A stretch of DNA of 56,282 nucleotides, from assembly GCA_003212005.1 (NCBI GenBank), contig QCRE01000004.1, positions 1 through 56,282 of the forward strand, written 5' to 3'. Both the position numbers and the translations under genes were made by a program. The notes beneath the pieces were generated by a model. It saw only the letters and a list, made by a program, of their open reading frames with translations. It had not been told where the DNA came from and did no database searches. Position 1 is the stretch's first letter; each line of letters begins with the position of its first letter. This stretch comes from Prochlorococcus sp. AG-459-M13 (GTDB lineage Bacteria; Cyanobacteriota; Cyanobacteriia; PCC-6307; Cyanobiaceae). Shown here in pieces: positions 10,227-45,340 of the stretch.

Positions 10227-10316
10227 ATGGAACTTAATTTCAAGACCTTAATGTTTACAGCATTATCTCCAATACTTATTGTTGCAGCAATTCTTGTGGT
10301 TTATTTATTTCATTAA
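10227..10316 (+). CDS. Micropeptide with one transmembrane span, 29 aa
   Basis: The ORF reads MELNFKTLMFTALSPILIVAA and ends in ILVVYLFH. More than two thirds of the residues form one hydrophobic span after a short polar N-terminus. Its size and layout match the class of single-span subunits of photosynthetic complexes, but I cannot assign it to any named one (compared from memory with PsbX, PsbY, PsaI, PetN, PetG and PetM). It is followed directly by a 14-bp tandem repeat. Confidence 0.45.
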   Translation: MELNFKTLMFTALSPILIVAAILVVYLFH

Positions 10317-10317
10317 T

Positions 10318-10359
10318 TTCAATTTTTTATCTTCAATTTTTTATCTTCAATTTTTTAGG
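10318..10359. repeat. 14-bp tandem repeat, three copies
   Basis: The unit TTCAATTTTTTATC occurs twice exactly and a third time with AGG replacing ATC at its end (10318-10331, 10332-10345, 10346-10359). It lies between two convergent micropeptide ORFs (10227-10316 plus and 10370-10465 minus). Because it is AT-rich and short it probably arose by slippage. It may vary between strains. Confidence 0.8.
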
Positions 10360-10369
10360 CTAACTATTT

Positions 10370-10465
10370 TTAAGGGTGAATAATCCCTGCTTTTTCTAAA
10401 ACAAAGGATAAAATTGCAATGACTGCCATTATTGTAAGAATTTTGTTCTTCTTGATGAAGTCCAT
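10370..10465 (-). CDS. Micropeptide with one transmembrane span, 31 aa
   Basis: The ORF starts MDFIKKNKILTIMAVIAIL and ends VLEKAGIIHP. It has a basic N-terminus and one hydrophobic span (about residues 9-22). The beginning is similar to that of the 36-aa micropeptide at 2299-2409 (MDFISK), hinting at a small family of paralogues. It is convergent with the 29-aa ORF. No named family is recognised. Confidence 0.45.
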   Translation of the reverse strand: MDFIKKNKILTIMAVIAILSFVLEKAGIIHP

Positions 10466-10638
10466 AATATATAGATAATTAATAGTTAGTGGTTTTTAAA
10501 ACTTAATTCTATTTTCGCTTAAAATCATTTCCTGCCATTTGCCATTAGTATATCCAAATTATACTTAATACTGTAATTATGCCTTGATAATCCTTAAATA
10601 CGTAAGAACAATCAATACAATAAAATTCTCTTATGAAT

Positions 10639-10676
10639 CAAAAAAAAAGTAAATCAGCATATTTACTGATTTACTT
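10639..10676 (-). terminator. Strong minus-strand terminator hairpin
   Basis: An 11-bp perfect stem (AAGTAAATCAG at 10647-10657 with CTGATTTACTT at 10666-10676, 8-nt loop) is flanked on its left by nine A residues, which read as a T tract on the minus strand. It would stop a minus-strand transcript coming from the right. No minus-strand gene lies immediately upstream in that orientation, so it either ends an unannotated RNA or blocks antisense transcription. Confidence 0.65.
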
Positions 10677-10709
10677 GAAATCCAAATAGTAGTAATTTAT
10701 AAATGTTGA

Positions 10710-11005
10710 GTTAGGAGGCAATCTAAATGATTGATAGTCCGCCTGAAATTTAGCAAATTTACAAATATAGGAAGCGTATTCCTGATAATGGGATTAATCG
10801 AAAAGTAAAGTTCAATCAATTAGTCTGATAAGACTTCGCTCTATAATTACCAGCGACAAAAGGGACTAAAATTATCGATAATAATCCCCTAATTCACGTA
10901 TTTAAAGATCATGATTAAATAATCTTTATATATGTATCAATTAAATCCTGTAAGTGGGAAATAAGAATTTTAAAAGAGGCCTGTAATTATAGGCCTCTTT
11001 TTTTT
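10710..11005 (+). ncRNA. Putative structured non-coding RNA, about 300 nt, unidentified
   Basis: No coding frame fits this interval, but it is full of helices and less AT-rich than its surroundings. The helices are CAATC/GATTG (10719-10733) within AGGC/GCCT; AGGAA/TTCCT (10769-10783); a 12-bp long-range stem GGGATTA-ATCGA with TCGAT-aa-TAATCCC (10790-10801 with 10875-10888); AGTCT-GATA-AGACT (10822-10835); and AAAGAT/ATCTTT (10904-10927). It ends in a classic terminator (10972-11005). A TATAAA hexamer at 10698-10703 would place the start near 10710. I compared it from memory with RNase P RNA, tmRNA, SRP RNA and 6S RNA and saw none of their conserved blocks. Strand is inferred from the terminator. 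Confidence 0.55.
10972..11005 (+). terminator. Rho-independent terminator
   Basis: An 11-bp perfect stem (AAAAGAGGCCT at 10972-10982 with AGGCCTCTTTT at 10991-11001) with an 8-nt loop runs into an uninterrupted T tract to 11005. It lies at the end of the putative RNA and about 70 bases before the proline iminopeptidase gene, so it cannot belong to an upstream protein gene nearby. Confidence 0.88.
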
Positions 11006-11073
11006 AGGTTTTTATAATCACATATATTTTTTATAAAATAATATTAATTTTCTAATTAATATAAAATATATAA

Positions 11074-12027
11074 ATGGAAGAAAAAAAATTATTCCCCTTC
11101 ATAGAGCCTAGGGAAAAGGGCTTTTTAAAAGTAAGTAAAATACATTCTATATATTGGGAAAGATCTGGTAACCCATATGGTAAAAAAATATTAGTAATCC
11201 ATGGTGGACCTGGAGGAGGAAGTCAGCCAAGATACAGAAGATATTTTAATCCAGAAAAATTTGATATTATTCAATTTGATCAAAGAGGTTGTGGCTATTC
11301 AAGACCTTTTTCAGAATTAAGGGAAAATACAACAAGCGATTTAGTAAGTGATATTGAAAAATTAAGAGTAAATTTAAAAATAGATTCTTGGCATTTATTT
11401 GGGGGTTCATGGGGTTCTACTTTAGCTTTGATTTATGCAATAAAAAATCCATCAAAAGTAAAAACTATGACCTTAAGAGGAGTATTTTTGTGTAGAAAAT
11501 TTGAACTATTATGGTTTTATCAATATGGTGCAAGTGAGATATTCCCAGAGGAGTTTGAAAGATATATCTCTGTAATACCTGAGGATCAAAGGGATAATTT
11601 AATAGCTTCTTTTTATAAATATCTAACATCTAAAGATATTGAACTTAGATCAAAAGCTGCATCTGCCTGGACAAACTGGGAGCTTTCTACAAGCCATCTC
11701 ATTAAAAGAGATCTTAATGTTGGTAAAAGTAAAACTAATTCCTTTTCAGACGCTTTCGCAAGAATAGAGTGTCATTATTTTATAAATAACATCTTCTTAG
11801 AAGATGATTTCATTTTGAAAAATACAAAGATAATAGAATCTATACCAACTAAGATAATACAAGGAAGATACGATATAGTTTGTCCTGTTAGGAGTGCTTG
11901 GGATCTTAATAAAAAATTAATAAATTCAGATTTGATTATCGTGGATGATGCTGGTCATTCTATGAGTGAAAAAGGAATCACAATAAAATTATTAGAGTCA
12001 GTTGAAAAACTAGAAAGATTTACGTAA
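11074..12027 (+). CDS. pip: Proline iminopeptidase (peptidase family S33)
   Basis: An alpha/beta-hydrolase that removes N-terminal proline from peptides in the cytosol. The oxyanion-hole motif HGGPGGG (43-49) and the nucleophile elbow GGSWGS with Ser112 are present. The catalytic Asp is at about 267 (GRYDIVCP) and His at 295 (DAGHSMS). The PGGGSQPRYRRYFNP and FDQRGCGYS stretches are specific to prolyl iminopeptidases. At 317 aa it is the expected length. It is monocistronic, just after the structured RNA and its terminator. Confidence 0.92.
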   Translation: MEEKKLFPFIEPREKGFLKVSKIHSIYWERSGNPYGKKILVIHGGPGGGSQPRYRRYFNPEKFDIIQFDQRGCGYSRPFSELRENTTSDLVSDIEKLRVNLKIDSWHLFGGSWGSTLALIYAIKNPSKVKTMTLRGVFLCRKFELLWFYQYGASEIFPEEFERYISVIPEDQRDNLIASFYKYLTSKDIELRSKAASAWTNWELSTSHLIKRDLNVGKSKTNSFSDAFARIECHYFINNIFLEDDFILKNTKIIESIPTKIIQGRYDIVCPVRSAWDLNKKLINSDLIIVDDAGHSMSEKGITIKLLESVEKLERFT

Positions 12028-18869: not shown

Positions 18870-19019
18870 GCATATCTAAATTATTTTTCATTTGCTTATT
18901 TCTCTCTTACCAAGAGAAGTAAATTATTTTAATAATAAAAAGTTATGCTCTAATTTCTACTCTAATTCGTTTATATTTATTGATCTTGAAAATTTTTGCG
19001 GTAGTTGGCTTTAGGGCTA

Positions 19020-19091
<72 letters not shown>

Positions 19092-19101
19092 AATTTTAAA
19101 G

Positions 19102-19183
19102 TGGGCCGGGTTGGATTTGAACCAACGTAGGCAGAGCCAGCGGATTTACAGTCCGCCCCCTTTAACCACTCGGGCACCGACCC
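19102..19183 (-). tRNA. trnY: tRNA-Tyr (anticodon GUA)
   Basis: The minus strand shows acceptor stem GGGTCGG with CCGGCCC, D arm GCCCGAGTGG, anticodon loop CTGTAAA (anticodon GTA) on stem GCGGA/TCCGC, a long variable arm typical of bacterial tyrosine tRNA, and T arm GTTGGTTCAAATCCAAC. Discriminator A is present, and CCA is not encoded. Length is 82 nt. It lies upstream of tRNA-Thr and divergent from aroQ. Confidence 0.97.
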
Positions 19184-45235: not shown

Positions 45236-45340
45236 GATTCGAAGTGACAAAACGGCCATCCCCCGTTCCCTGGTATGACTCGAACTGCGCCCTCAATTGA
45301 GGGTGAACGAAAATGTAGCTGTTGCTACAGATTTATTATA
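45236..45340 (-). promoter_or_regulatory. Promoter and structured 5' leader of the DUF4278 gene
   Basis: On the minus strand a perfect TATAAT lies at 45335-45340, predicting transcription start near 45328. The leader of about 93 nt contains a 6-bp hairpin TGTAGC/GCTACA (45314-45329), a perfect 14-bp palindrome CCCTCAATTGAGGG (45290-45303), and a GTTCGAGTC stretch followed by a G-rich run. Its GC content is well above the surrounding sequence, which suggests a folded regulatory RNA. No riboswitch class was recognised. Confidence 0.5.

Follow-up and report, generated by a model that had tools for sequence, protein, structure and literature searches.

The closest described system is the Yfr8/Yfr9 pair of Prochlorococcus MED4, reported as antisense RNAs at 339952..340241 and complement(339887..340176), each with forms of 180, 220 and 290 nt in Northern blot and 5'RACE analyses (PMC2518516, section 7). 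According to section 9 of the same paper, three further RNAs, Yfr11, Yfr16 and Yfr19, fall in the light and rise with DCMU, and the light-responsive RNAs named there do not include Yfr8. PMC5069720 ranks Yfr103 first in abundance among the transcripts of marine picocyanobacteria and calls its function "enigmatic"; section 8 of that paper gives a length of 290-328 nt and a palindrome at -58..-29. In the literature searched, we found neither an assigned function for Yfr8/9, Yfr11, Yfr16 and Yfr19, described in 2008, nor a paper linking the Yfr103 palindrome with the light and DCMU response of Yfr11, Yfr16 and Yfr19.

The window analysed here is a stretch of 56,282 nt from Prochlorococcus sp. AG-459-M13 (contig QCRE01000004.1), in which a sequence-only reading had proposed an unidentified structured RNA at 10710-11005. 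The Rfam search, named by that reading as its own possible refutation, returned RF02360 ("Yfr8, Cyanobacterial functional RNA 8/9") with 252 bits and an E value of 5.4e-61, far above the threshold of 40 bits and covering the full model (1-226). The label "unidentified" could hence not be kept, and a new RNA class was ruled out by this match. RF02360 is named for Yfr8, yet the model lies on the Yfr9 strand. Its match in genome G015 (339952-340177, minus strand) agrees with the published MED4 coordinates of Yfr8 and Yfr9, so that the plus-strand interval corresponds to Yfr8 and the overlapping minus-strand RNA to Yfr9. Judged by homology, the RNA gene (Table 1) is the already known Yfr8 with its published antisense partner; what had been picked out is a real RNA gene, although it is paired with an antisense RNA and is probably not purely non-coding. 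Within the genus, 84 of 101 genomes contain a match to RF02360 above the cut-off, among them 27 of the 29 that are at least 90% complete, and none of 14 controls does. A wider search of the family detected it in 62 of 400 genomes, belonging to one genus out of 59, and a covariance model (R1) confined Yfr8 to the genus of the window (9/201 genomes). On its upstream side the gene is flanked by a family-2 glycosyltransferase and on its downstream side by an alpha/beta hydrolase, and matching frames exist in MED4. Elsewhere in the window, a Glutamine-II riboswitch aptamer was detected at 45255-45312 (minus strand, 64.7 bits), and tRNA-Thr(GGT) adjoins tRNA-Tyr(GTA) at 19019-19183 (minus strand).

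Table 1. Features of the Yfr8/Yfr9 locus in window coordinates.
Feature	Position	Strand	Basis or remark
Yfr8 RNA	10705..11003	+	5' end: gap-free homology to MED4 339952; 3' end: terminator
Yfr9 antisense RNA	~10929-10640	-	homology to MED4 complement(339887..340176)
Rfam RF02360 match	10705..10930	-	model sits on Yfr9 strand
26-bp dyad GTAAATCAG-N8-CTGATTTAC, proposed regulator site and Yfr9 terminator stem	10649..10674	.	-56..-31 of Yfr8
Yfr9 terminator stem	10647..10676	-	T tract below stem
Yfr8 -10 element TAATTT	10693..10698	+	TANNNT kept in 99/99 aligned sequences
Long-range helix, 5' arm, masks Shine-Dalgarno	10707..10718	+	pairing across alignment
Shine-Dalgarno GGAGG	10714..10718	+	alignment, pattern search
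Predicted micro-ORF ATGATTGATAGTCCGCCTGAAATTTAG, MIDSPPEI-stop	10727..10753	+	alignment; N-terminus recurs in RF02363 and Yfr103-like loci
Long-range helix, 3' arm CCCCTAATTCA, CCCC at 10886-10889	10886..10896	+	pairing across alignment
Yfr8 intrinsic terminator	10972..11003	+	terminator scan; both partners of some pairs altered, e.g. G-C to A-U

The structural part of the sequence-only reading was partly borne out. None of 200 dinucleotide shuffles folded as well as the interval (z -4.64), the 12-bp long-range stem is present in the MFE fold as 12 pairs, and the plus-strand terminator combines a stem of 13 pairs (five G-C) at 10972-11001 with a T tract behind it. The minus strand also surpasses all of its 200 shuffles in folding (z -4.11). 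Only two terminator-like sites occur in 10300-11300 (shuffle mean 0.4), and the location of the second (10676-10647) on the minus strand indicates that two overlapping RNAs exist. Relative to the start deduced from MED4, the TATAAA at 10698-10703, noted previously as promoter-like, would occupy -7..-2, and TAATTT is the better -10 element. For Yfr9, the -10 element is kept in 87 and the T tract in 95 of the 99 aligned sequences, and three divergent copies (L102-L104) are without both while retaining Yfr8. In the window itself both terminators and the Yfr8 -10 element are present and Yfr9 is without a TANNNT -10 element, which suggests that Yfr9 may be weak here. The consensus fold of the overlap, calculated from the same 18 sequences, reached -79.1 on the plus strand versus -65.4 on the minus strand, and G-U and A-C cells stood at 107:12 versus 47:23, a comparison in which the program favours G-U on the folded strand. 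The plus strand, that is Yfr8, looks like the more constrained of the two.

The statement that the interval holds no good coding frame overlooks the segment 10714-10753, in which a strong ribosome site precedes a frame of eight codons. GGAGG lies 9 nt after the start of Yfr8 and is followed by an 8-nt spacer and ATG ATT GAT AGT CCG CCT GAA ATT TAG. For the alignment, 102 distinct regions were reduced to 99 distinct sequences, L105 being left out because its match covered only 25 nt and L095 because a contig end truncates it, and GGAGG, ATG, frame and stop are kept in all 99, including copies of approximately 70% identity. GGAGG is paired in the long-range helix, so that the start site can be masked; 89.8% of the cells of this helix are paired versus 22-62% in slid versions, and one pair, involving the base before GGAGG, changes on both sides (C-G, A-U, G-U), largely along clade lines. 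Within the Yfr8 clade, every change in codon 4 alters the amino acid, and this codon sits in an unpaired bulge. Given that RNA structure explains the conservation in the Yfr8 clade as well, this clade alone is weak evidence for translation. The best reading is nevertheless that Yfr8 is likely an mRNA-like RNA with the predicted micro-ORF MIDSPPEI. A pattern search for GGAGG-spacer-ATG and M-x-[D/E]-x-P-P-[D/E] matched 95 of 101 genomes of the genus, with 0 matches of the reversed pattern, and, at the family level, 86 of 151 genomes from 44 of 59 genera, with control matches in 13 genomes. The three matches in MED4 are Yfr8, Yfr11 and Yfr16, with GGAGG 8-9 nt past the published starts.

Since this pattern presupposes the frame, the test was repeated on loci chosen without it. 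All 30 fetched loci found by RF02363 carry a MI[DEN]SPP[EK] frame, mostly of 13 codons; they include a fourth high-light paralogue (MIDSPPEE...), mostly below the Rfam cut-off. It can be added that the RF02363 model, built for Yfr11, also catches Yfr16 and, again mostly below the cut-off, this fourth paralogue, of which additional copies were seen. In MED4, Yfr11 corresponds to complement 358606..358754 and Yfr16 to complement 657392..657529, and the genome of the window has a copy of the Yfr11/Yfr16 type, MIDSPPEKFIRLV followed by a stop, at G000:C19:12236-12268 (L211). The body motif CCTGCTCCAACANTCT provided another set of loci, being present in 98 of 121 genomes and 51 of 59 genera of the family and absent from the five genomes searched within the window's own genus. 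The 49 readable motif loci comprise 30 and 19 of 20 further ones, mostly from genomes without a match to the pattern (L262 was omitted because of its short upstream region). A ribosome site and a start codon are present in 46 of them and three are without a frame; Pro-Pro occurs within the first nine residues of 44 of the 46 frames, the other two having Gly-Pro.

The variation within these frames is concentrated at third codon positions. When 17 distinct frames of 13 codons were compared, the four highest entropies among 12 columns (0.79-1.45 bits) belonged to the third positions of codons 3-6, and no other column exceeded 0.32 bits. The mean entropies of codons 2-7 by codon position are 0.32/0.35/1.21 in Yfr103-like loci (24 sequences, Pro-Pro at codons 5-6), 0.20/0.00/0.43 in RF02363 loci (7 sequences) and 0.08/0.24/0.34 in Yfr8 (9 sequences). 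Pairwise changes between the groups were synonymous in 1336 and non-synonymous in 1635 cases, and 3 of 200 column permutations reached this synonymous share in a sample of 300 pairs, which gives moderate support. At the level of sequence, the predicted M-x-D-[S/T]-P-P frame is common to Yfr8, Yfr11, Yfr16, the fourth paralogue and the probable Yfr103 RNA.

The motif loci of Synechococcus and low-light Prochlorococcus are very probably Yfr103, as judged by clade, palindrome, copy number and rough length. Up to eight copies were found per genome, and the median length is 280 nt, 29 of 50 copies falling within 280-340 nt by a crude terminator call that was possible for 50 of 61 copies. RCC307, a strain listed in PMC5069720, holds two such loci. 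None of five genomes from the window's genus has the body motif CCTGCTCCAACA, and Rfam 15 gave no match to the Yfr103-like RNA in the 14 loci scanned (L215-L228). A motif search of 84,980 genomes returned 111 matches; among the 80 listed, 78 have cyanobacterial titles and the other two, Oryzomonas and Desulfatitalea, presumably arose by chance. Yfr8 itself carries both proposed marks of a Yfr103 superfamily, namely a palindrome at about -58..-29 (the dyad at -56..-31) and a 5' GGAGG with M-x-D-[S/T]-P-P. A second Yfr8-like copy at L115 1017-1300 (G081:C23), which has the dyad and a longer frame (MDCNPPEYLQKKF...), seems to stand between Yfr8 and the type found in low-light Prochlorococcus and Synechococcus.

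With up to three mismatches, the dyad upstream of Yfr8 has a few sites per genome in 18 of 20 genomes, with three matches of the reversed pattern in all; the two genomes without a match belong to other genera. Besides Yfr8, the MED4 sites lie 30 nt before Yfr19, whose identity was confirmed by RF02366, and between two divergent small-protein genes, and weaker versions precede Yfr11 and Yfr16. A matrix scan covered 86 distinct upstream regions and placed the best site 37-41 nt ahead of GGAGG in 82 of them, compared with 2 of 86 after shuffling; the matrix was derived from 12 sites, some of them within the test set, and the four misses are L215, L216, L225 and L267. Another dyad-like site, the fourth (TTAAATTTGCAT..., L148), was set aside, as it heads no recognisable transcript. 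A protein of 50-60 aa with a HPVKNDLPPSIGAHAYS or HPINNSLPPEIGTHSY core was also observed behind the dyad (L112 699-881, minus strand; L147, L154, L118 and L150); the two copies tested had no Pfam match above the cut-off.

We hypothesize here, with moderate confidence, that Yfr8 would be an mRNA-like RNA of a shared regulon in which a masked ribosome site feeds a micro-ORF and Yfr9 acts as the antisense RNA. A dimeric regulator at the dyad would very likely set the transcription of the dyad-headed RNAs together, and ribosomes would probably start at GGAGG and translate the micro-ORF when the long-range helix is open. Pro-Pro codons are slow and dependent on EF-P. An early Pro-Pro might pause the ribosome near the 5' end, shield the RNA and couple its fate to translation, a step that we regard as rather tentative. 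Given that the Yfr8 frame ends after PPE-I and that the longer frames are variable in their C-terminal half, a ribosome on the first seven codons is favoured over a folded peptide. The half-lives of 19.7 min for Yfr8, >20 min for Yfr16, 4.8 min for Yfr11 and 6.9 min for Yfr9, as stated in PMC2897979, fit a simple 5' shield in part, that is for Yfr8 and Yfr16 but not for Yfr11. Yfr9 is complementary to the start site and to both helix arms and could thereby block the frame and target the RNA for degradation, for which we see the chances as balanced. During phage infection of MED4, Yfr9 was reported to be induced after 1-3 h, with Yfr8 constant (PMC2518516); together with this complementarity, the induction suggests an antisense control of the frame and not a peptide borne by Yfr9. 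The wider proposal that Yfr8, Yfr11, Yfr16 and Yfr103 form one regulon of ribosome-engaging rather than base-pairing RNAs, each with a strong start site and a conserved Pro-Pro micropeptide at its extreme 5' end, on which ribosomes would load, pause and protect the RNA, appears doubtful at present.

Yfr8 might instead be an ordinary non-coding RNA, with GGAGG and the 5' block merely serving as helix arms and a micro-ORF that is never translated. Rfam and PMC2518516 both class it as an sRNA, CCCC is the pairing partner of its 5' GG..GG, and the positions at which the frame varies are found in loops or bulges. This is difficult to reconcile with the unrelated bodies of Yfr11/16 and the Yfr103-like RNAs, which keep the frame, mostly of 13 codons, with different codons, and with the appearance of GGAGG-N-start in just 492 of 20000 mononucleotide shuffles of Yfr8, and we consider such a non-coding role unlikely. 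PMC2518516 had proposed a type I toxin-antitoxin pair with a toxic peptide on Yfr9, a suggestion that accords with overlapping antisense RNAs, the induction of Yfr9 by phage and a 44-aa Yfr9 frame reported there for MED4 and three strains. That published frame was not found among the Yfr9 frames examined here. The longest one with an ATG, GTG or TTG start (40 aa, TTG) ends after four codons in 66 of 95 start-motif sequences, the copies L102-L104 give up the Yfr9 signals and preserve Yfr8, and the conserved frame is located on Yfr8, which together make a toxin on Yfr9 scarcely credible.

The dyad could also be nothing more than the terminator stem of Yfr9, with no part in transcription control, as the T tract follows it on the Yfr9 strand in nearly all aligned sequences. 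However, it is kept in L102-L104 where this T tract is lost, it recurs in MED4 at the two further sites described above, and its distance to GGAGG is fixed in most upstream regions; we therefore hold a terminator-only role to be very improbable and retain the dyad as a proposed regulator site. A phage origin was rejected, because 10600-11060 gave no match in 50,697 phage records. The micropeptide query had no phage match and the Yfr8 start pattern no match in IMG/VR. The downstream motif occurred in 102 IMG/VR stretches, near a rough chance estimate, with a Pro-Pro frame in one of the 80 listed. This stretch (L440, IMGVR_UViG_3300035003_000005) is labelled viral, has a Yfr103-like start (LMEDTPPEQTPGAR), and its listed frames fit phage or host.

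The Yfr8 micro-ORF and the shared dyad appear unreported in the literature searched. Neither a micro-ORF in Yfr RNAs nor a dyad joining them was found in the full-text literature, where most subscription papers lay outside the coverage; MIDSPPE and five related strings returned one unrelated paper, and the dyad core GATTTAC combined with Prochlorococcus gave no relevant-looking paper among the full-text matches listed. With a promoter site in common and a conserved micro-ORF, several separate Yfr puzzles would become one testable hypothesis, which asks whether Yfr RNAs are read by ribosomes, what role the M-x-D-[S/T]-P-P peptide plays and which regulator binds the dyad.

Compared with the known systems, the locus agrees with Yfr8/Yfr9 (RF02360; PMC2518516) in position, in both strands, in the ends deduced by homology and in the neighbouring genes. 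In contrast, the accessible text of PMC2518516 places the peptide on Yfr9 and describes neither a Yfr8 micro-ORF nor an upstream dyad. Yfr19 (RF02366) shares the dyad, 30 nt before its published start, but no conserved micro-ORF was seen in it. Yfr11 and Yfr16 (RF02363) resemble Yfr8 in having the dyad upstream, GGAGG at 8 nt from the published start and the MIDSPPE frame, whereas their bodies are about 140 nt long, their frame has 13 codons and the likeness to Yfr8 seen here lies in these elements and not in the RNA bodies. We know of no antisense partner of these two RNAs. Yfr103 (PMC5069720) has its palindrome in common with Yfr8, and in the loci regarded as probable Yfr103 the dyad is accompanied by an M-x-D-T-P-P frame; these loci differ in their RNA body, marked by the CCTGCTCCAACA motif, and in being multi-copy. 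Yfr8 is thus not Yfr103 proper, but it may work like Yfr103.
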